A stretch of 53,030 nt of DNA from Brevundimonas diminuta ATCC 11568. GTDB lineage: Bacteria; Pseudomonadota; Alphaproteobacteria; Caulobacterales; Caulobacteraceae. The notes beneath the pieces are model-generated. The model did no database searches. It worked only from the letters and a program-made list of their open reading frames with translations, and had not been told where the DNA came from. This document shows, piece after piece, positions 32,583 to 40,361 of this stretch (within the stretch, counting starts at the first letter, position 1; each line of letters begins with the position of its first letter). The translations under genes were made by a program, and so were the position numbers. The stretch is taken from NCBI RefSeq assembly GCF_000204035.1, contig NZ_GL883086.1, positions 1,057,540 through 1,110,569 on the forward strand. Reading direction: 5' to 3'.

Positions 32583-33611
32583 ATGACAGACGATCGCTTT
32601 TCTTATGCGCCGCAGAACGACGCCAAAACCACCAAGCGGATCGCCGTATCAGGCGGCGCCGGTTTTCTGGGATCGCATCTATGCGGGCGACTGGTTGACG
32701 CCGGCCATCATGTGACCTGCATTGATAATTTTCATACGGGTCGTCACGCGAACGTCGCTCATCTGATGAGTTCGGATCGCTTCCACCTGGTGGCGCAGGA
32801 CATCAATGAGCCGCTGGACGACGCGCTGGGCCGGTTCGATCAGATCTACAATCTGGCCTGCCCTGCCTCCCCGGTTCACTACCAATATGATCGGGTGAAG
32901 ACGGCCATGACCTGCTCGATCGGCACGCTGAACCTGCTGAAGCGTGCGGCGGCGGACGGCGCACGCTTCTTTCAGGCCTCGACTTCGGAAATCTATGGCG
33001 ATCCGGAAATCCACCCGCAGGTGGAGAGCTATCGCGGCAACGTCAACACCGTGGGACCGCGCTCTTGCTACGACGAGGGCAAGCGGTTCGCCGAGACCCT
33101 GGTGACGGACTTCGGGCAGCAGCACGGCCTGACCACGCGGATCGTGCGCATCTTCAACACCTACGGGCCGCGGATGCACCCGGACGACGGGCGGGTGGTG
33201 TCGAACTTCATCGTCCAGGCTCTGGTCGGCAACGACATCACCATCTACGGCACGGGCGAGCAGACGCGCTCCTTCTGCTTCGTTGACGACCTGATCGAAG
33301 GGTTCGTCCGCCTGATGGACACGGACGAGGATATCGACGGACCGGTCAACATCGGCAATCCGAGCGAGATCACGGTCAATGAGTTGGCTCATCAGGTCAT
33401 CGCCCTGGCGGGGTCGCGCTCGCGATTGGTCTATCACCCGCTGCCGATCGACGATCCGCGCCGTCGCAAGCCCGATATCTCCAGGGCGCTGACCCACCTG
33501 CACTGGTCGCCCCAGGTGCCGCTGCAGGACGGGCTAAAACAGACCATCGCCTATTTCACCGCCGAGCTTCAGGGCGAGAGAGTCGCCCAGCGCGGCGCCG
33601 CCGCGTCGTGA
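32583..33611 (+). CDS. UDP-glucuronate decarboxylase (UDP-xylose synthase)
   Basis: The 342-residue extended SDR protein has the NAD-binding GGAGFLG at 24-30. The family hallmarks of UXS are all present: [37 protein letters not shown] (Tyr163, Lys167), [21 protein letters not shown] and DPRRRKPDI. These separate UXS from UDP-glucose epimerases. It turns UDP-glucuronate into UDP-xylose in the cytoplasm, feeding xylose to a glycan. It is the first gene of the 32583-38387 locus. Confidence 0.9.
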
Positions 33612-33690
33612 GACGGCGGACCGACGAGACACCACGGGACAGAGCAACCACCACCGACTTATTGGGCAAAATAACTGGGCGAGCGGCGTG

Positions 33691-35136
33691 ATGAACACTC
33701 AAGATCCGAACTGGGCGACCCTGCTAGTCTGGTTGTTCGCTCTTTCCCAGATTCTCTATCTCGGAAGCTTCCTGCTGGAGATGTACTTCCGCTCGCTGCG
33801 CGTCGAGCGCGTGGACATGAGCGAGCCCCTGCCGGCCAGCGAGGCGGACTATCCCTTCATCGTCCTTCTGTATCCCGTGCTGCGGGAGCTGGAGAGCACC
33901 ATGGAGACGACGTTCACGTCTCTGGCCAAGCTGGACTACCCCGCCGACCGCTATCGCGTCCTGGCCATCCCCAACAGCAACGACGCCGAGACCATCGCCA
34001 GCCTGCAGCGGCTGAGCCGGGCCTATCCCTTCGTCGAGATTCTGGCGGTGCCGCCGACCAGCGACGCCAGCTGGGACATGGTGTGGAACGCCTGGGACCG
34101 GAATCCGAAGGCCTATTGGTGGCACAGCGGCAAGCGCGCCGGGGTCAAGGATCTGCCGCCCAAGAAGACGCGCCAGCTGATCTACGCCACCTATCATGTA
34201 GCCGAGACCTATAAGGACAAGAGCGGGCTGACGATCGACTACATCGACGCCGACAGCTGCCCGCCGGCCGACCACTTCAAGGCGGCGGCCATCGGCCTGC
34301 GCCGGTTCGACGTGCTGCAGGCCCGCAATGTGGCGGGCAATCTGAACGCCAGCCTGGCCGCCGCCTTCCACGCCTTCGACCACATGACGTGGGACGGCGC
34401 CAAATACGGCCACCTGTCCGATCCGAAGCAACCCTACTGGGTGCTGGGCAAGGGCCTGTTCTTCAAGGTCGACGACCTGATCGAACTGGGAAGCTTCCAC
34501 CCCTGGATCGCCATCGAAGACCCCGAGGTCGGCCAGCGCTTCTGGAAGAACGGCCGGACGCTGGGCATCATCGAAGGCTCGCTGATCGAAGAGGTGCCCG
34601 AGACCTTCCGCGAAGGGATCACCCAGAGGAAACGCTGGGTCGCCGGATTCTTCCAGAGCCTGACGACGCCGCTGAAGGAGATGGACTTCAGCTTCGGCGA
34701 GCGGGTCCGCGTGTGGATGAACTTCCTGCCCTGCATGTCCATGTGGGTGAACACCCTGGGCATTCCCCTGGGCGTCTGGGCGGCCTGGCGGTTCTTTCAG
34801 GGCGACGATTTCCTGCCGCTGTGGCTGGTGATCCTGTCGATCTTCAACATCGTCGCCTTCTCGATCCTGATGATCGGCCTCTACATCAAGACGTGGCGGC
34901 GGACCGACCTGGTGCTGGACGGCGCGGGCGCGCGCATCGGCTACATGCTGATGGTCAATCCGATCTTCATCATGGTCTGGTGGTGCGTCTGGATCATCCC
35001 GCTGACGCTAGGCTTCGTCATGTATGTGCGGGACAGCGGCCTGGCCTGGCAGCGAACCGAGAAGATCGACGCCAACAACACCCTCGTCCGCACCAAGCTG
35101 GATGAGTTCGGCGCCCTTCGTCATCACCAGCACTAA
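33691..35136 (+). CDS. Processive-type membrane glycosyltransferase, GT2
   Basis: The 481-residue protein has an N-terminal membrane helix (about 9-32), a cytosolic GT-A domain, and four or five C-terminal helices (about 335-460). The catalytic set of processive synthases is visible: DAD at 186-188, E276-D277 as the base and Q312-x-x-R315-W316. This is the D,D,D,QxxRW pattern of cellulose, chitin and hyaluronan synthases. No PilZ domain is present. It probably makes and extrudes a polysaccharide across the inner membrane. The sugar is not known, but the neighbours suggest xylose. Confidence 0.88.
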   Translation: MNTQDPNWATLLVWLFALSQILYLGSFLLEMYFRSLRVERVDMSEPLPASEADYPFIVLLYPVLRELESTMETTFTSLAKLDYPADRYRVLAIPNSNDAETIASLQRLSRAYPFVEILAVPPTSDASWDMVWNAWDRNPKAYWWHSGKRAGVKDLPPKKTRQLIYATYHVAETYKDKSGLTIDYIDADSCPPADHFKAAAIGLRRFDVLQARNVAGNLNASLAAAFHAFDHMTWDGAKYGHLSDPKQPYWVLGKGLFFKVDDLIELGSFHPWIAIEDPEVGQRFWKNGRTLGIIEGSLIEEVPETFREGITQRKRWVAGFFQSLTTPLKEMDFSFGERVRVWMNFLPCMSMWVNTLGIPLGVWAAWRFFQGDDFLPLWLVILSIFNIVAFSILMIGLYIKTWRRTDLVLDGAGARIGYMLMVNPIFIMVWWCVWIIPLTLGFVMYVRDSGLAWQRTEKIDANNTLVRTKLDEFGALRHHQH

Positions 35137-35146
35137 GCAGACGGTC

Positions 35147-36283
35147 ATGGACAAGCACATTCTCATCACCGGCGGGGCGGGCTTCATCGGCTCGCACCTG
35201 GTCGACGCCATGCTGGCGCGCGGCTATCGCGTGACGGTCCTGGACAGTCTGTCGCCCCAGGTTCACGGCGACGCCGAAATGGATGCGGACGGGTGGCCCG
35301 TCTACCTCGACGCACGGGCGCGCCGCATCAAGGGCGACCTGTTGGAAGACGGGGTGTTCGAGGCGGCGCTGAACGGCGTGACCCACCTGGCCCACCTCGC
35401 GGCCTCGGTCGGCGTGGGTCAGAGCATGACCAACATCGTCGACTACACCCGCAACAACGTCATGGCGGCGGCCGTCATGCTGGAGACCCTGTCCCAGCGC
35501 CCGCACACGGTCGAGCGGATCGCCGTCGCCTCGTCCATGTCGATCTATGGCGAGGGGGACTACGTCCGCCCCTCGACCGGCGCCCATGTGACCACCGACA
35601 TCCGCCCGCACGCCCAGTTGGAAGCGCGTCACTGGGATCTGATGGTCGACGGCGAACCGCTGGAGCCCTGCCCCACGCCGGAAGAGAAGCTGCTGCAGCC
35701 CAACTCCATCTATGCGGTGAACAAGCGCGACCATGAGGAGATGTTCCTGTCGGTCGGCCGGGCCCTGCGCATCCCCACCGTGGCCCTGCGGCTGTTCAAC
35801 GCCTATGGCTCGCGCCAGGCCCTGAGCAATCCCTATACGGGCGTGGCGGCCATCTTCATCTCGCGGCTGATGAACGACCAGCCGCCGCTGGTGTTCGAGG
35901 ACGGGCGGCAGATGCGCGACTTCGTCCATGTGCAGGATGTGGCCGAGGCCTTCGCCACCGTGCTGGATGACGACCGCGAGATCTGGGACGTGTTCAATGT
36001 CGGCAGCGGCGCGCCTGTCTCCATCAACGAGATCGCAGGCGTCCTGGCCCGGCTGCTGGGCAAGAACATCGCACCGGAAGTGCTGAACCGTTATCGAGTC
36101 GGGGATATCCGTCACTGCTTCGGCGACATCTCCAAGATCGAGCGCACCTTCGGCTTCACGCCTCGGCGGTCGATGGACGAGGGCATGGAGGAGTTGATTT
36201 CCTGGGTGTCGCACACCCGCGCCCCCATTGACCGAAGCGCAGAAAGTCTGGAACAACTGTCCAGGGGAAGGTTGGTCGTCTGA
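35147..36283 (+). CDS. NAD-dependent nucleotide-sugar epimerase, dTDP-L-rhamnose 4-epimerase-like
   Basis: The 378-residue extended SDR protein starts MDKHILITGGAGFIGSH. The N-terminal LDSLSPQVHG and LAASVGVGQSM motifs resemble dTDP-L-rhamnose 4-epimerases. The catalytic pair is Tyr189 and Lys193 in YAVNK. The substrate is a guess. The ATG is ten bases after the GT2 stop with no strong Shine-Dalgarno, so translation may be coupled. It likely provides a second sugar for the polymer. Confidence 0.85.
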   Translation: MDKHILITGGAGFIGSHLVDAMLARGYRVTVLDSLSPQVHGDAEMDADGWPVYLDARARRIKGDLLEDGVFEAALNGVTHLAHLAASVGVGQSMTNIVDYTRNNVMAAAVMLETLSQRPHTVERIAVASSMSIYGEGDYVRPSTGAHVTTDIRPHAQLEARHWDLMVDGEPLEPCPTPEEKLLQPNSIYAVNKRDHEEMFLSVGRALRIPTVALRLFNAYGSRQALSNPYTGVAAIFISRLMNDQPPLVFEDGRQMRDFVHVQDVAEAFATVLDDDREIWDVFNVGSGAPVSINEIAGVLARLLGKNIAPEVLNRYRVGDIRHCFGDISKIERTFGFTPRRSMDEGMEELISWVSHTRAPIDRSAESLEQLSRGRLVV

Positions 36284-36375
36284 CAGATTTCCCGCCTGTT
36301 CTGTATGCGTTTTGTAGTGTCTCCGCCGGCGTCGCCAGCATCTGGCGCGTTCGATACTTCGCAAGGAACTGACCC

Positions 36376-37101
36376 ATGCCTCACCGTCGACGCCCGATGA
36401 CTTCCCTGGCCGCACCAGCGGCGGCGGCCCTCGTCTGCGCGGGCGTCGCCTGGGTCGGGCCGGCCTCGGCGCAAAGCGATGTGACCGTGTTCGCGGGCGG
36501 CCAGTTGGACGTCGCCGACAGCGCCTATGCCGGAGCGACGATCGGCCTGCCCGGCTCGGTCGATTCGAAGGGTTTTGCGGTGCGCGGCTCGGTCTACACC
36601 GGCAGCTACGACTACAACTCGGGTCCGAATGAGATCGCCGCCGACTTCACCGGCGCCCAGGCGGAGCTGATCTATCGTTTCGGCAACGGCCCGACCTGGG
36701 GCAGCGTCGGCATCGGCTATCGCTATGTCGATACCGACCTCAGCCCCGCCGATCCCGGCAATCGGCGCGACGGCGGCCAGGGCGGCGTCATCGTCTCCCT
36801 GGACGGCGGCCATGTCTCCGGCCCCTGGCGGGTCGACTGGTACGGCTCCTACGGTTTCGAACTGGACGATTACAACGCCCTGGCCAGCCTGACCCATCAG
36901 GTCGGCTCATCCGGCCGCGTGCGCCTGGGCATGGAGGTCGCGGCCGAAGGCGACACCAACTACAACGCCTATCACATCGGTCCCGTGGCCGGGTTCAAGC
37001 TGAACGACAAGTCAGAAATCCAAGTTTCTGTGGGCCTGAGCGACGGCGATCAACGCAGTTCGCAGGCCTATGTTCGGCTCGGTTTCTATCGAAGCTTCTA
37101 G
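36376..37101 (+). CDS. BcsS-like outer-membrane beta-barrel protein
   Basis: The 241-residue protein has an N-terminal signal peptide (cleavage near ASA-QS). The rest is made of alternating hydrophobic strands rich in Gly, Tyr and Asp, such as WGSVGIGYRYVDTD, and ends in Y-R-S-F, a terminal Phe typical of outer-membrane barrels. The layout recalls the cellulose-locus protein BcsS. That likeness comes from memory of the family, not a search. An AAGGA lies before the ATG. It may help export or shape the polymer. Confidence 0.7.
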   Translation: MPHRRRPMTSLAAPAAAALVCAGVAWVGPASAQSDVTVFAGGQLDVADSAYAGATIGLPGSVDSKGFAVRGSVYTGSYDYNSGPNEIAADFTGAQAELIYRFGNGPTWGSVGIGYRYVDTDLSPADPGNRRDGGQGGVIVSLDGGHVSGPWRVDWYGSYGFELDDYNALASLTHQVGSSGRVRLGMEVAAEGDTNYNAYHIGPVAGFKLNDKSEIQVSVGLSDGDQRSSQAYVRLGFYRSF

Positions 37102-37195
37102 AACGAAGAGCCGGAAGGGCGAACGATTACCGGCTCAGCTCATGGAAACACCGTTTTCGCGCCCAACTTCCCGTCCCTGACGCCTCTTAAGATTG

Positions 37196-37217
37196 CGCCT
37201 TAACGAGAAGTTAGGCG
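37196..37217. repeat. Imperfect inverted repeat upstream of the GH10 gene
   Basis: CGCCTTAAC and GTTAGGCG pair with one bulged base around a short GAGAA loop. It lies 43 bases before the xylanase ATG in the 158-base gap after the barrel gene. It may be a leader hairpin or an operator. Confidence 0.35.
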
Positions 37218-37259
37218 TAGTAAGGCAGCCTTCTCGCGTTCCTGAGGAGGTGCAGCCGA

Positions 37260-38387
37260 ATGCTGCCGCGACCCACCAGACGAGCCTTCATCGGCGCCGC
37301 CGCGCTTGCGCCCGCCCTTGGACTGGCGGCGTGGCGTCCTGTGCGCGAAGGCCTTCCGCTGGATCCTCCGCCTGTGAAGACCGCCACCCTCGCCGACGCC
37401 GCCAGCGCGCAGGGCCGATATTTCGGCGCCGCCGTCCGGGCCGAACAACTGCGTCAGAACGCCGAACTGCGCGGCGCGGTCCTGCGCGACTGTCAGGTGC
37501 TGACGCCTGAAATCCATCTGAAGTGGAACTCCCTGGAATGGCGCAAGGGCGAGTTCAACTTCGCCCCTGTCGACGATCTGCTCGACTTCTCGCAAAGCCA
37601 CGGCATGCAGGTGCGCGGCCACACCCTGCTGTGGGATCAGGGCACGCCCGACTGGGCCAGGCAGGAGATGCTGCGGCGTCGAGACTGGTCGCTGATGTCC
37701 GGGCACCTGGAGCGCGTGCTCAAGCGATACGGCGACCGCATCGCCGACTGGGACGTCATCAACGAACCGATCGACACCCAAGGCGGGGCGGGCGGCCTGA
37801 GACGCAACGTCTTCCACCGCGCCTTCGGCCCGACCTATATCGAGCGCGTGCTGGAAGAGGCGCGCGCGCTCGCGCCCAAGGCTCATCTGGTCGTCAACGA
37901 CTACGGTTTTGAATACGACAATCCCGTGGATCAGGCCCGGCGCAAGGCCATTGTCGCCCTGGCGCGACGGCTGCGCGCCTCAGGCACGCCGCTGGACGGC
38001 ATCGGCGTTCAGGCGCACCTGGACCTGTCCAAGGGACCGCTGGCGGCCGACGACCTGCGCGACATGACACAGCAGTTGGTCGATCTGGGGCTGGAGATCA
38101 CGATCACCGAACTGGACGTGAAGGAATCCAGCTTCCACGGCACGGCGGCCGCGCGCGATCAGAAGGTCGCCGATGAGACGCGCCGCTATCTGGAGACCAT
38201 GCTGGCCTTCACCCAGGTCCGCGGTGTCGTCACCTGGGGCCTGAGCGATCGCCACTCCTGGCTGTCTGAGCCCCCGCAACGTCAGTATGCGGACGCTCCG
38301 CCGAACCGCGGCCTGCCTTATGACGTCGATTACCGGCCCAAACCGATGTACCATGCCCTATCTGAGGCGTTGCGCCTGAGCGCCTAG
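37260..38387 (+). CDS. GH10 family endo-beta-1,4-xylanase, Tat-exported
   Basis: The 375-residue protein starts with a twin-arginine signal (RR at 7-8, then A-F-I-G and a hydrophobic Ala/Leu run). The GH10 barrel follows: LTPEIHLKWNSLEW, VRGHTLLWDQGTPDW, acid/base Glu169 in DVINEP, VVNDYGFEYD, GIGVQAHLDL and nucleophile Glu284 in ITELDV. It cuts beta-1,4-xylan. A GAGGAGG Shine-Dalgarno precedes the ATG. Sitting after UXS and a processive GT2, it may edit a self-made polymer in the periplasm, as BcsZ does for cellulose. Confidence 0.92.
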   Translation: MLPRPTRRAFIGAAALAPALGLAAWRPVREGLPLDPPPVKTATLADAASAQGRYFGAAVRAEQLRQNAELRGAVLRDCQVLTPEIHLKWNSLEWRKGEFNFAPVDDLLDFSQSHGMQVRGHTLLWDQGTPDWARQEMLRRRDWSLMSGHLERVLKRYGDRIADWDVINEPIDTQGGAGGLRRNVFHRAFGPTYIERVLEEARALAPKAHLVVNDYGFEYDNPVDQARRKAIVALARRLRASGTPLDGIGVQAHLDLSKGPLAADDLRDMTQQLVDLGLEITITELDVKESSFHGTAAARDQKVADETRRYLETMLAFTQVRGVVTWGLSDRHSWLSEPPQRQYADAPPNRGLPYDVDYRPKPMYHALSEALRLSA

Positions 38388-38481
38388 CTCCCAACCTTTA
38401 CTTTTGCTGCATTTTCAGGCCAGGAAACGGGCACCCTTTCCGCTTATCCCGCGTTAGGGACGCAGTGATAGGGGGTTGGAT

Positions 38482-39987
38482 TTGCGGAAGCTCGCCAAAA
38501 CAATCGATCTGGTGGCCGCGTTCGACTCCTCTCCCAACCCCTATATGCTGCTGGATCGCGACCTGCGTTTCGCCGGCATGAATCAGGCCTATCTGGACGT
38601 CACTCAACGCCGACGCGACGACCTGATCGGCCATCACGTCATGGAAATGTTCGCGCCGGGCGACGCCCCCGACAGCCAAGAGGAAAGCCGCCGGCTGCGC
38701 GCCTCTTTCGACAAGGTGTTGGCCACGGGCGAACCGGATCATCTGGCGGTCCTGCACTACCCCGTTCTGACGCCCGGCCCCGACGGAGAGCCGGTCTTCG
38801 ATGATCGGTTCTGGAGCTGCACCCATACGCCGATCAAAAATGAAGACGGTCAGGTCACGCACATCCTGCAGCACACCAGCGATGTGACCGAGCTTCTACG
38901 TCTGCGCCAAAAGACGGTCGACGGGGCGGGCCAGTCATCCGCTCTGGACGCCATGGTGGGCGATGAGGTGTTCCGACGGGCCGTGAAGATCGAAGCTAAC
39001 AACCAGCGCCTCGAAGCCGAACGTAAGCAGCTCACCGACATGCTGATGAATGCGCCGGGCTTCGTCGCGGTGCTGAACGGCCCCGACCACATGATCCAGT
39101 TCTGCAATGAAGCCTGCTATCGACTGGTCAGCCATCGCGACATTCTGGGCCAGCCGGTGCGCGACGCCCTGCCCGAACTAAGCGACCAGGGCCATCTGGA
39201 TTTTCTCAACGACGTCTATGAGACGGGCGAGCCGGTTTATGGCCGCCAGCGCGCCTTCGCCCTGCGGCACGCGCAGGACGGTCCGCTGGACCATCGCTAC
39301 ATCGACTTCGCCTATCAGCCCATTCGCGGCGACGAGGGAAAGATCGTCGGCATCTTCGTCCAGGGCCACGACGTGACCGACGTGGTGCTGGCCGCCGAGC
39401 GCCAGAAGCTGATGATCGACGAGTTGAACCACCGGGTGAAGAACACCCTGGCTACGGTCCAGTCCATCGCCATGCAGACCGCGCGCACGCACCAGGATCC
39501 CGGCTCCTTCGCCGCCGCCTTCCAGTCGCGCATCCTGGCCCTGTCGCACACCCACGACCTGCTGACCCGCAGCCATTGGGAAGGCGCCGACCTGCGCGCC
39601 GTGCTGGAGCACGAGACGCAGGCCCACGGCATCGGGCGACTGACTATGAACGGGCCGCACGTCGCCCTGTCCCCGGCGCGCGCGGTGTCGCTGGGCATGA
39701 TCTTCCACGAGCTGGCCACCAACGCCGCCAAATACGGCGCCCTGGCCTGCGGCGACGGCCGCGTCATGGTCGACTGGGCCATCAGCGACCAGAAGTCGCC
39801 GCGCCTGCACATCATCTGGCGCGAAGCCGGCGGCGAACCCATCCCCGAGCCGGAACGGCGCGGCTTCGGCACCCGCCTGATCGAGCGCAACGTGCGCCAT
39901 GACCTGCATGGGACGGTGCAGCTCTCCTATCCGCCCGAAGGCTTCTGCGCCGAGATCAGCCTGCCCCTAGAAACGGAAACCCTATGA
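38482..39987 (+). CDS. PAS-domain HWE histidine kinase
   Basis: The 501-residue cytoplasmic kinase has two PAS domains (about 10-135 and 185-305) and an HWE-type kinase core. This has His317 in LNHRVKNTLATVQSIA, the N-box HELATNAAKYGAL and the late GFGTRLIERN motif. No membrane helix is seen. TTG 38482 is favoured by a GGGGG sequence six bases away. TTG 38476 is the alternative. It overlaps the next gene by 4 bases. Confidence 0.9.
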   Translation: MRKLAKTIDLVAAFDSSPNPYMLLDRDLRFAGMNQAYLDVTQRRRDDLIGHHVMEMFAPGDAPDSQEESRRLRASFDKVLATGEPDHLAVLHYPVLTPGPDGEPVFDDRFWSCTHTPIKNEDGQVTHILQHTSDVTELLRLRQKTVDGAGQSSALDAMVGDEVFRRAVKIEANNQRLEAERKQLTDMLMNAPGFVAVLNGPDHMIQFCNEACYRLVSHRDILGQPVRDALPELSDQGHLDFLNDVYETGEPVYGRQRAFALRHAQDGPLDHRYIDFAYQPIRGDEGKIVGIFVQGHDVTDVVLAAERQKLMIDELNHRVKNTLATVQSIAMQTARTHQDPGSFAAAFQSRILALSHTHDLLTRSHWEGADLRAVLEHETQAHGIGRLTMNGPHVALSPARAVSLGMIFHELATNAAKYGALACGDGRVMVDWAISDQKSPRLHIIWREAGGEPIPEPERRGFGTRLIERNVRHDLHGTVQLSYPPEGFCAEISLPLETETL

Positions 39988-40361
39988 CCGACGTGCTTTC
40001 AGGCCGCCGCGTGCTGATCGTCGAGGACGAGTCCCTGGTCGCCATGCTGCTGGAGACCATTCTCAGCGACATGGGATGCACCGTCATCGGCCCCGAATCG
40101 AACGTCGGCGACGGCCTGCGCGTCGTGACCGGCGAGACCGATCTCGACGCCGCCCTGCTGGACGTCAATGTGGCGGGCCAGGAGGTGTTTCCCATCGCCG
40201 AGGCGCTGAAGGCGCGGGGCGTCCCCTTCGTCTTCTCGACCGGCTATGGCGAAAGCGGACTGCCCGAGCACTGGCGCGGCAATCCCACGGTGCAGAAGCC
40301 CTTCACCGACGCCGCCATCCGCGACGCCCTGATGGCCGCCCTGAACATGAGCATGGCCTGA
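39984..40361 (+). CDS. Single-domain response regulator
   Basis: The 125-residue REC protein has Asp15 of the acidic pocket, Asp60 as phospho-site and Lys105 in QKPF. No output domain is present. It is coupled to the HWE kinase upstream by a 4-base overlap (ATGA) and is surely its partner or its phosphate sink. Confidence 0.9.
   Translation: MTDVLSGRRVLIVEDESLVAMLLETILSDMGCTVIGPESNVGDGLRVVTGETDLDAALLDVNVAGQEVFPIAEALKARGVPFVFSTGYGESGLPEHWRGNPTVQKPFTDAAIRDALMAALNMSMA

Follow-up and report, generated by a model that had tools for sequence, protein, structure and literature searches.

Five adjacent, co-directional genes on the + strand of Brevundimonas diminuta ATCC 11568 (positions 32583-38387 of the 53,030-nucleotide stretch analysed here, referred to as the window) are predicted to encode a UDP-glucuronate decarboxylase/UDP-xylose synthase (UXS), a membrane glycosyltransferase of family 2 (GT2), a 4-epimerase-like short-chain dehydrogenase/reductase (SDR), a BcsS family protein and an exported glycoside hydrolase of family 10 (GH10). 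GH10 enzymes are best known for their action on beta-1,4-xylan, and the row raises the question of whether such an enzyme can belong to a system that makes a polysaccharide and, if so, which one. Based on the recurrence of these genes in other genomes, on their families and on the active site of the hydrolase, we consider it probable (about 0.68) that the locus encodes a synthase-dependent system for a secreted exopolysaccharide that is fed by UDP-pentose and cut by its own xylanase-type GH10.

The association between the GT2 and the GH10 is exact within the genus. A search of 131 genomes of the genus found the GT2 in 12, at an E-value of 1e-60 or better, and this type of GH10 in the identical 12; the other 119 have neither at that threshold, and by their listed places the two genes lie within ~2.2 kb of each other in each of the 12. 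Two layouts are found: in nine genomes the GT2 is 78-100% identical and the GH10 is on the same strand, whereas in three genomes the GT2 is 58-60% identical and the GH10 faces it. The gene grouping is more than a chance row.

The five genes and their predicted functions

The members of the row are the following.

32583-33611, + strand: UXS (UDP-glucuronate decarboxylase/UDP-xylose synthase), P0001, 342 amino acids
33691-35136, + strand: membrane GT2 polysaccharide synthase, P0002, 481 amino acids from the ATG, with no PilZ match
35147-36283, + strand: extended SDR, probably a UDP-sugar 4-epimerase, P0003, 378 amino acids
36376-37101, + strand: BcsS family protein, probably an outer-membrane barrel by prediction, P0004, 241 amino acids
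37260-38387, + strand: exported (twin-Arg) GH10 glycoside hydrolase, P0005, 375 amino acids

An alternative start of the GT2, a GTG at 33688 three bases upstream of the ATG, is also possible, and the longest open reading frame (ORF) of P0003 would begin at 35024, overlapping the GT2. All five genes were present in a row on one strand, as the first-pass annotation had described them, and each could be assigned to a family.

The best match of P0001 in the PDB was human UXS1 (2b69, 360 bits), far above the best chain of any other enzyme (131.7 bits), and with ArnA entries scoring ~82 bits or less the sequence falls in the UXS group and not with ArnA or other SDRs. The YxxxK motif (CYDEGKR) was read directly, no NCBIfam model scored above its cut-off, and the UXS encoded at pSymB 470493-471416 of Sinorhizobium meliloti 1021 shares 66% identity with the protein. 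By these comparisons P0001 is a UXS-type UDP-glucuronate decarboxylase for which formation of UDP-xylose is predicted, in agreement with the activity first given to it. UDP-glucose dehydrogenase (UGDH) and UXS complete the established pathway from UDP-glucose through UDP-glucuronate to UDP-xylose, and a UGDH gene is found on another contig of the host genome (3.37 Mb, 8 contigs). P0003 is an extended SDR (PF01370, 156.9 bits; YxxxK motif YAVNK, read directly), whose best NCBIfam model, galE, scored 141.7 bits, under its cut-off of 262.3, and whose best PDB chains were an NAD-dependent epimerase/dehydratase, then MoeE5 and UDP-glucose 4-epimerase; it is probably a UDP-sugar 4-epimerase.

PF13632 was the sole Pfam family above cut-off in P0002, and the absence of a PilZ match by Pfam bears out the earlier description of a GT2 without this domain. 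In a 20-sequence alignment that includes P0002, residues D98, D186, D188, D277, Q312, R313, R315 and W316 are invariant and K314 nearly so, and the D,D,D,QxxRW motif is accompanied in the predicted model by the TM-GT-TM fold of processive synthases of the BcsA and hyaluronan synthase type; the conserved motif residues and the modelled fold are consistent with the processive GT2 that had been proposed. Most of the modelled chain can be matched to BcsA and hyaluronan synthase, and the NCBIfam model CelA (TIGR03030) scored 20.1 bits against a cut-off of 699.1. In the homologue search 7997 candidates were scored and the best 120 of 846 listed; in the scan of named genomes described below, the closest named relative was that of B. 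diminuta 3F5N (98% identical).

P0004 matched PF17036 (BcsS) with 85.4 bits (cut-off 24), which confirms the family named in the first reading, and has a signal-peptide-like start and a C-terminal Phe; the barrel is a prediction. P0005 matched the GH10 family (PF00331) with 263.8 bits (cut-off 22.1) and a twin-Arg N-terminus (TRRAFIG) was read directly, so that a Tat-exported GH10, as first noted, is predicted. A twin-Arg motif is found within the first 75 residues in 35 of 37 GT2-linked GH10s.

Scans of the window gave no Rfam match at the gathering threshold and no tRNA. The GC content of the UXS and GT2 genes (0.625 and 0.631, with 0.67 for the window) would fit acquisition by transfer. On the 3' side of the GH10 an HWE histidine kinase (38476-39987) is followed by a response-regulator-like ORF, assigned by eye (39984-40361), and such a pair also follows the GH10 in several Brevundimonas loci. 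The kinase was rejected as a member of the system, being present in 99 of the 131 genus genomes with the GT2 in 12, and given this wide occurrence in the genus, insertion of the cluster next to it is possible.

Recurrence of the synthase with its partners

Named genomes were scanned with two peptide patterns, and the frequencies given here are those of the resulting sample of 54 loci from several phyla, in which close relatives are not independent. Partners were counted by one-sequence phmmer probes with self-chosen thresholds on simple ORF calls, by which distant members can be missed (the GH10s of one locus, L080, were), and the counts are from a recount made without a greedy gene choice that had lost the UXS in two loci and the epimerase in three. 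Taxon groups were taken from the record titles; one contig titled as a Bordetella metagenome-assembled genome (L034) carries a Brevundimonas-type cluster, possibly through a binning error, and was counted with the Alphaproteobacteria since its GT2 is 95% identical to that of the window.

Within 6.5 kb of the GT2 an epimerase was found in 53, a UXS in 43, a GH10 in 32 and a UGDH in 28 of the 54 loci. The 43 loci with complete flanks gave 43 epimerases, 38 UXSs, 28 GH10s and 25 UGDHs, together with a BcsS protein in 10, a CBM60-like protein in eight and another possible barrel in four. The ORFs of the GT2 and the epimerase overlap by 1-8 bases in 14 of 51 measured loci, the ORF starts being uncurated.

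The position of the GH10 varies. Of 37 GH10s, nine lie downstream of the GT2 on its own strand; the remainder are on the opposite strand, 18 of them downstream (Alphaproteobacteria 14, Eremiobacterota three, other one) and 10 upstream. When the complete-flank loci are sorted by taxon, 25 of 28 from Alphaproteobacteria and 3 of 3 from Eremiobacterota have a GH10 near the GT2, as against none from Legionella (0/3), actinobacteria (0/6), Chloroflexota (0/2) and one other taxon (0/1). Mapped on the GT2 tree, GH10 presence requires 9 changes, of which well supported branches call for at least 4, some of the apparent absences being contig ends. The same-strand five-gene row itself is found in six Brevundimonas-type loci (L033-L036, L068, L075), and three Eremiobacterota loci have the same gene order with the GH10 inverted. 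Of the conserved gene order that the earlier reading called for, the partnership thus recurs across orders and phyla, but the exact row is found in those six loci and BcsS was detected in 11 of the 54.

Other genes near the GT2 may serve export or binding of the polymer. In other synthase-dependent systems, tetratricopeptide repeat (TPR)-barrel proteins such as BcsC and PgaA move polymers across the outer membrane; a TPR protein lies between the UXS and the epimerase in the Legionella locus L056, and that of L076 has a PgaA-barrel match just under its cut-off. Another possible barrel, with a representative (L064:3361-4278) that has no Pfam family and is barrel-like by a guess from its sequence, is found in 6 of the 54 loci. 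A CBM60-like protein with a signal-peptide-like start is found in 8 of the 54 loci, those of Devosia type, and all eight match at an E-value of 2.3e-5 or better, three of them above the curated cut-off of Pfam, which describes CBM60 as a Ca-dependent xylan-binding module.

Some further neighbours were seen. A Ktedonobacteria locus has a GH8 gene, that is of the BcsZ family, near the GT2 and epimerase (L071:5021-6661). Many rhizobial-type loci are preceded by ORFs of two kinds (L044:1-2669 and, alike, L042:867-2699), in 14 and 12 loci; those of L044 have no Pfam match and one kind is rich in Asn and Asp. An ABC exporter is found in seven loci of mixed taxa; together with the upstream ORFs it may represent a surface protein and the machinery that secretes it.

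The system is sporadic. In addition to the 12 of 131 genomes of the genus, a class sample of 385 genomes contained the GT2 at 1e-100 in three. Relatives of the GT2 occur also in Legionella, Chloroflexota and Actinomycetota, and in the GT2 tree Eremiobacterota stand beside Brevundimonas and Legionella among Alphaproteobacteria. This sporadic occurrence together with the tree suggests horizontal transfer, by which the cluster has probably spread.

Active site and descent of the GH10

The residues of the linked GH10s, which number 39 with the addition of the two L080 genes (126.9 and 51.7 bits by Pfam), were compared in Streptomyces numbering, with residue roles taken from general knowledge of the family. 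The acid/base and nucleophile pair (Glu128 and Glu236), Asn127, Trp85 and Trp266 are kept in all 39, His207 and Trp274 in 38, Glu44, His81 and Gln205 in 37 and Lys48 in 28, and most residues of the -1 subsite are kept. At the -2 subsite all 39 have a hydrophobic residue (I, W, F, L, Y or V) in place of the usual Asn45. The usual Gln88 is also absent from all of them (Ser in 23, Gly in eight, Met in four, Thr in two, Ala and Pro in one each). Among 32 comparison GH10s, 24 keep the Asn, 31 have either Asn or Ser at that position, and only one keeps the Gln; since the comparison enzymes mostly keep the Asn and rarely the Gln, it is the Asn change that is the sharper mark of the linked enzymes. 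Ten GH10s grouped as flagellar-linked have lost the Asn (Trp in nine, Phe in one) and kept the Gln in nine, and seven unlinked GH10s of the class-wide sample keep the Asn in four. The replacement of the -2 Asn suggests that the native substrate would bear something other than unsubstituted xylose at -2, so that plain xylan is not assured.

In the tree the 39 linked GH10s are on one side of a branch, with 42 other GH10s on the other side. Support for this branch is modest (90/62; recovered in 88% of 200 bootstrap trees), long branches, those of L080 above all, drew a warning from the tree program, and the 42 are from the window's family only, with the identical pairs L109/L132 and L096/L133; the seven unlinked class-wide GH10s are in the residue table and were left out of the tree.

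Xylan utilisation offers another setting for a GH10. The xylan-utilisation locus of the window's family (L132), with a TonB receptor, a GH10 and a GH43, resembles the row in its GH10, but this enzyme has TonB receptor and GH43 neighbours and is found in another part of the tree. One-sequence phmmer probes from L132, made for these two neighbours, gave no GH43-like ORF and one TonB-like ORF (L064) in the 54 loci and L003-L005. A GH10 placed among xylan-uptake genes in relatives, which the first-pass annotation had named as speaking against its proposal, was, apart from the one TonB-like ORF, not seen beside the GT2 by these probes. A catabolic xylanase beside an unrelated GT2 was rejected by the GT2-GH10 co-occurrence and the locus context.

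A second GH10 of this genome (G000:C3:82671-83594; L124:8555-9625) was rejected as a member of the system as it adjoins a FliJ-like gene and is found elsewhere in the tree. A similar case is L125:8236-9327; the FliJ-like gene directly 5' of the GH10 scored 29.1 and 25.0 bits in the two (cut-off 28.4), and L125 also has a flagellar-type ATPase gene. The 10 likely flagellar-linked GH10s group in the tree with one other row, their genomic context having been examined in two loci.

Known systems and the nature of the polymer

The nearest described system is that of the arabinose-containing polysaccharide (APS) of S. meliloti, which is made from uxs1-uxe-apsS-apsH1-apsE-apsH2 according to the available part of its report (PMC7902896). 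We located the cluster in pSymB by its UXS, in an unannotated record in which the genes were named by position. Like the window's row, it combines in one cluster a UXS, at the 66% identity given above, with an epimerase for sugar nucleotides, a membrane GT2 and a gene resembling a hydrolase. Its GT2 (651 amino acids), however, has no significant similarity to P0002 (BLASTP E 0.32), its epimerase is 26% identical to P0003 and its hydrolase is GH26-like and not similar to P0005; in tblastn P0002 matched four plasmid records, none of Sinorhizobium. The possibility that the cluster is the APS operon was rejected because the synthase, epimerase and hydrolase differ, and with only the UXS close between the two, the row follows a known principle with parts of another kind. 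The earlier statement that no locus of this form had been described has to be narrowed in view of APS, although neither a bacterial xylan synthase nor this gene form was found described in a literature search of a partial library.

Cellulose loci share with the row a membrane GT2 of like fold, a BcsS family protein, which is an optional component, and a secreted glycanase beside the synthase, but the row has no PilZ, a CelA score far below cut-off, a UDP-pentose supply gene and a GH10 in place of the GH8 that BcsZ is described to be in the accessible text of PMC9693552. Neither BcsB nor BcsC was found among the five genes by Pfam. The promonan cluster of Sphingomonas sp. LM7, as far as the available part of PMC11340318 describes it, has a dispensable GH10 gene, prmN, a Wzx/Wzy pathway and several glycosyltransferases, and its polymer is composed of glucose, galactose and glucuronic acid, with no xylose listed there. 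Its likeness to the row, as described, is a GH10 gene inside an alphaproteobacterial exopolysaccharide cluster.

In the pathway that we propose, UXS would convert UDP-glucuronate, from the UGDH encoded elsewhere in the genome, to UDP-xylose, which the epimerase would probably equilibrate with UDP-L-arabinopyranose. On the cytosolic side, the membrane GT2 would build a chain from one or more pentose donors and pass it through a channel of its own. Passage across the outer membrane would, in this lineage, be helped by the BcsS protein, and the exported GH10 would cut or trim the chain, the role usually ascribed to BcsZ in cellulose loci. Here we infer the identity of the donor, the substrate of the epimerase, processivity, the role of BcsS and the cutting of the polymer by the GH10. 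Beta-1,4-linked xylose is most likely part of the backbone, and what occupies -2 would differ from plain xylose. A wider and more tentative claim, for which we see somewhat less than an even chance, is that of a bacterial xylan-type synthase system, in which a processive GT2 would build a beta-1,4-xylose backbone from UDP-xylose and a dedicated GH10 would edit the chain. Such a system would have been passed between Alphaproteobacteria, Eremiobacterota and other groups, and would be independent of the xylan synthases of plants, which are of families GT43 and GT47.

Several results weigh against a xylan-like product or a tie between GT2 and GH10, besides the altered -2 subsite. The most constant partner of the GT2 is the epimerase, and not the UXS or GH10, which leaves room for L-arabinopyranose, and loci of Legionella and Actinomycetota have no GH10 nearby. 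Of the three GT2-bearing genomes of the class sample only the window's own has a P0005-type GH10 at 1e-60, and seven other class genomes have a GH10 at that threshold without the GT2, although these score 206-248 bits with the same query, as compared with at least 276 for the linked GH10s outside L080. The model of P0002 also matches PcManGT, a mannosyltransferase, so that the suggested structure comparison returned BcsA and hyaluronan synthase but not them only. The search of the partial library found no chemistry for the polymer of any of these loci, and promonan shows that a GH10 can sit in the exopolysaccharide cluster of a polymer of glucose, galactose and glucuronic acid. The proposal of a xylose polymer trimmed by its own xylanase is thus upheld for a recurrent polymer system, a supply of UDP-pentose (UXS in 43 and UGDH in 28 of 54 loci) and a dedicated GH10, whereas the identity of the polymer as xylan is put in doubt by the constancy of the epimerase, by the Asn replaced in 39 of 39 and by the promonan GH10.

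The constancy of the epimerase (53/54) and the overlap of its ORF with that of the GT2 (14/51) would also be accounted for by a polymer mainly of L-arabinopyranose or another 4-epimerised sugar, as in APS, for which UXS and epimerase would supply the epimerised donor and in which the GH10, with its altered -2 subsite, would act on a non-xylan pentopyranan; the available part of the APS report gives the same uxs1-uxe-synthase order (PMC7902896). We regard this as rather unlikely, since most -1 residues of a family best known for beta-1,4-xylan are kept, a protein related to the xylan-binding CBM60 is near the GT2 in eight loci, and the epimerase is just 26% identical to that of APS. It is also conceivable that the epimerase acts on donors of the UDP-glucuronate, UDP-glucose or UDP-N-acetylglucosamine type, the polymer being dominated by uronic acid or hexose with xylose as a minor component, and that the site of the GH10 is unrelated to xylan, as may hold for PrmN. 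MoeE5 and UDP-glucose 4-epimerases among the PDB chains close to P0003, the dispensable GH10 of promonan as partly described (PMC11340318), the Reyranella loci L042 and L043, which keep the GH10 without a UXS near the GT2, and the changed -2 subsite are in line with it. However, 43 of 54 loci have a UXS close to the GT2, which makes UDP-xylose the specific extra donor, and a single GT2 among five genes fits a complex repeat unit poorly; we consider such a polymer improbable.

The reading that departs most from ours, and which we consider very improbable, is that of a non-processive GT2 that decorates lipid, lipopolysaccharide or protein with xylose, with a catabolic xylanase nearby by accident. 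The fold matches PcManGT as well as BcsA and the weaker GH10 relatives do occur without the GT2, but such an accident is difficult to reconcile with the presence of both genes in 12 of 12 genomes and of either in none of 119 in one genus, with the recurrence of a GH10, in three layouts, in 32 of 54 loci, with the outcome of the two catabolic probes (one TonB-like and no GH43-like ORF) and with the BcsS, TPR and CBM60-like partners.

Xylan is thought of as a polymer of plant and algal walls. If a UDP-pentose-fed exopolysaccharide cut by its own GH10 is made from this locus, GH10 genes in genomes would not always be for eating plants, and a compact bacterial locus would provide a simple genetic system to study and produce such polymers. 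The exact co-occurrence in one genus together with the spread across phyla makes this claim directly testable.

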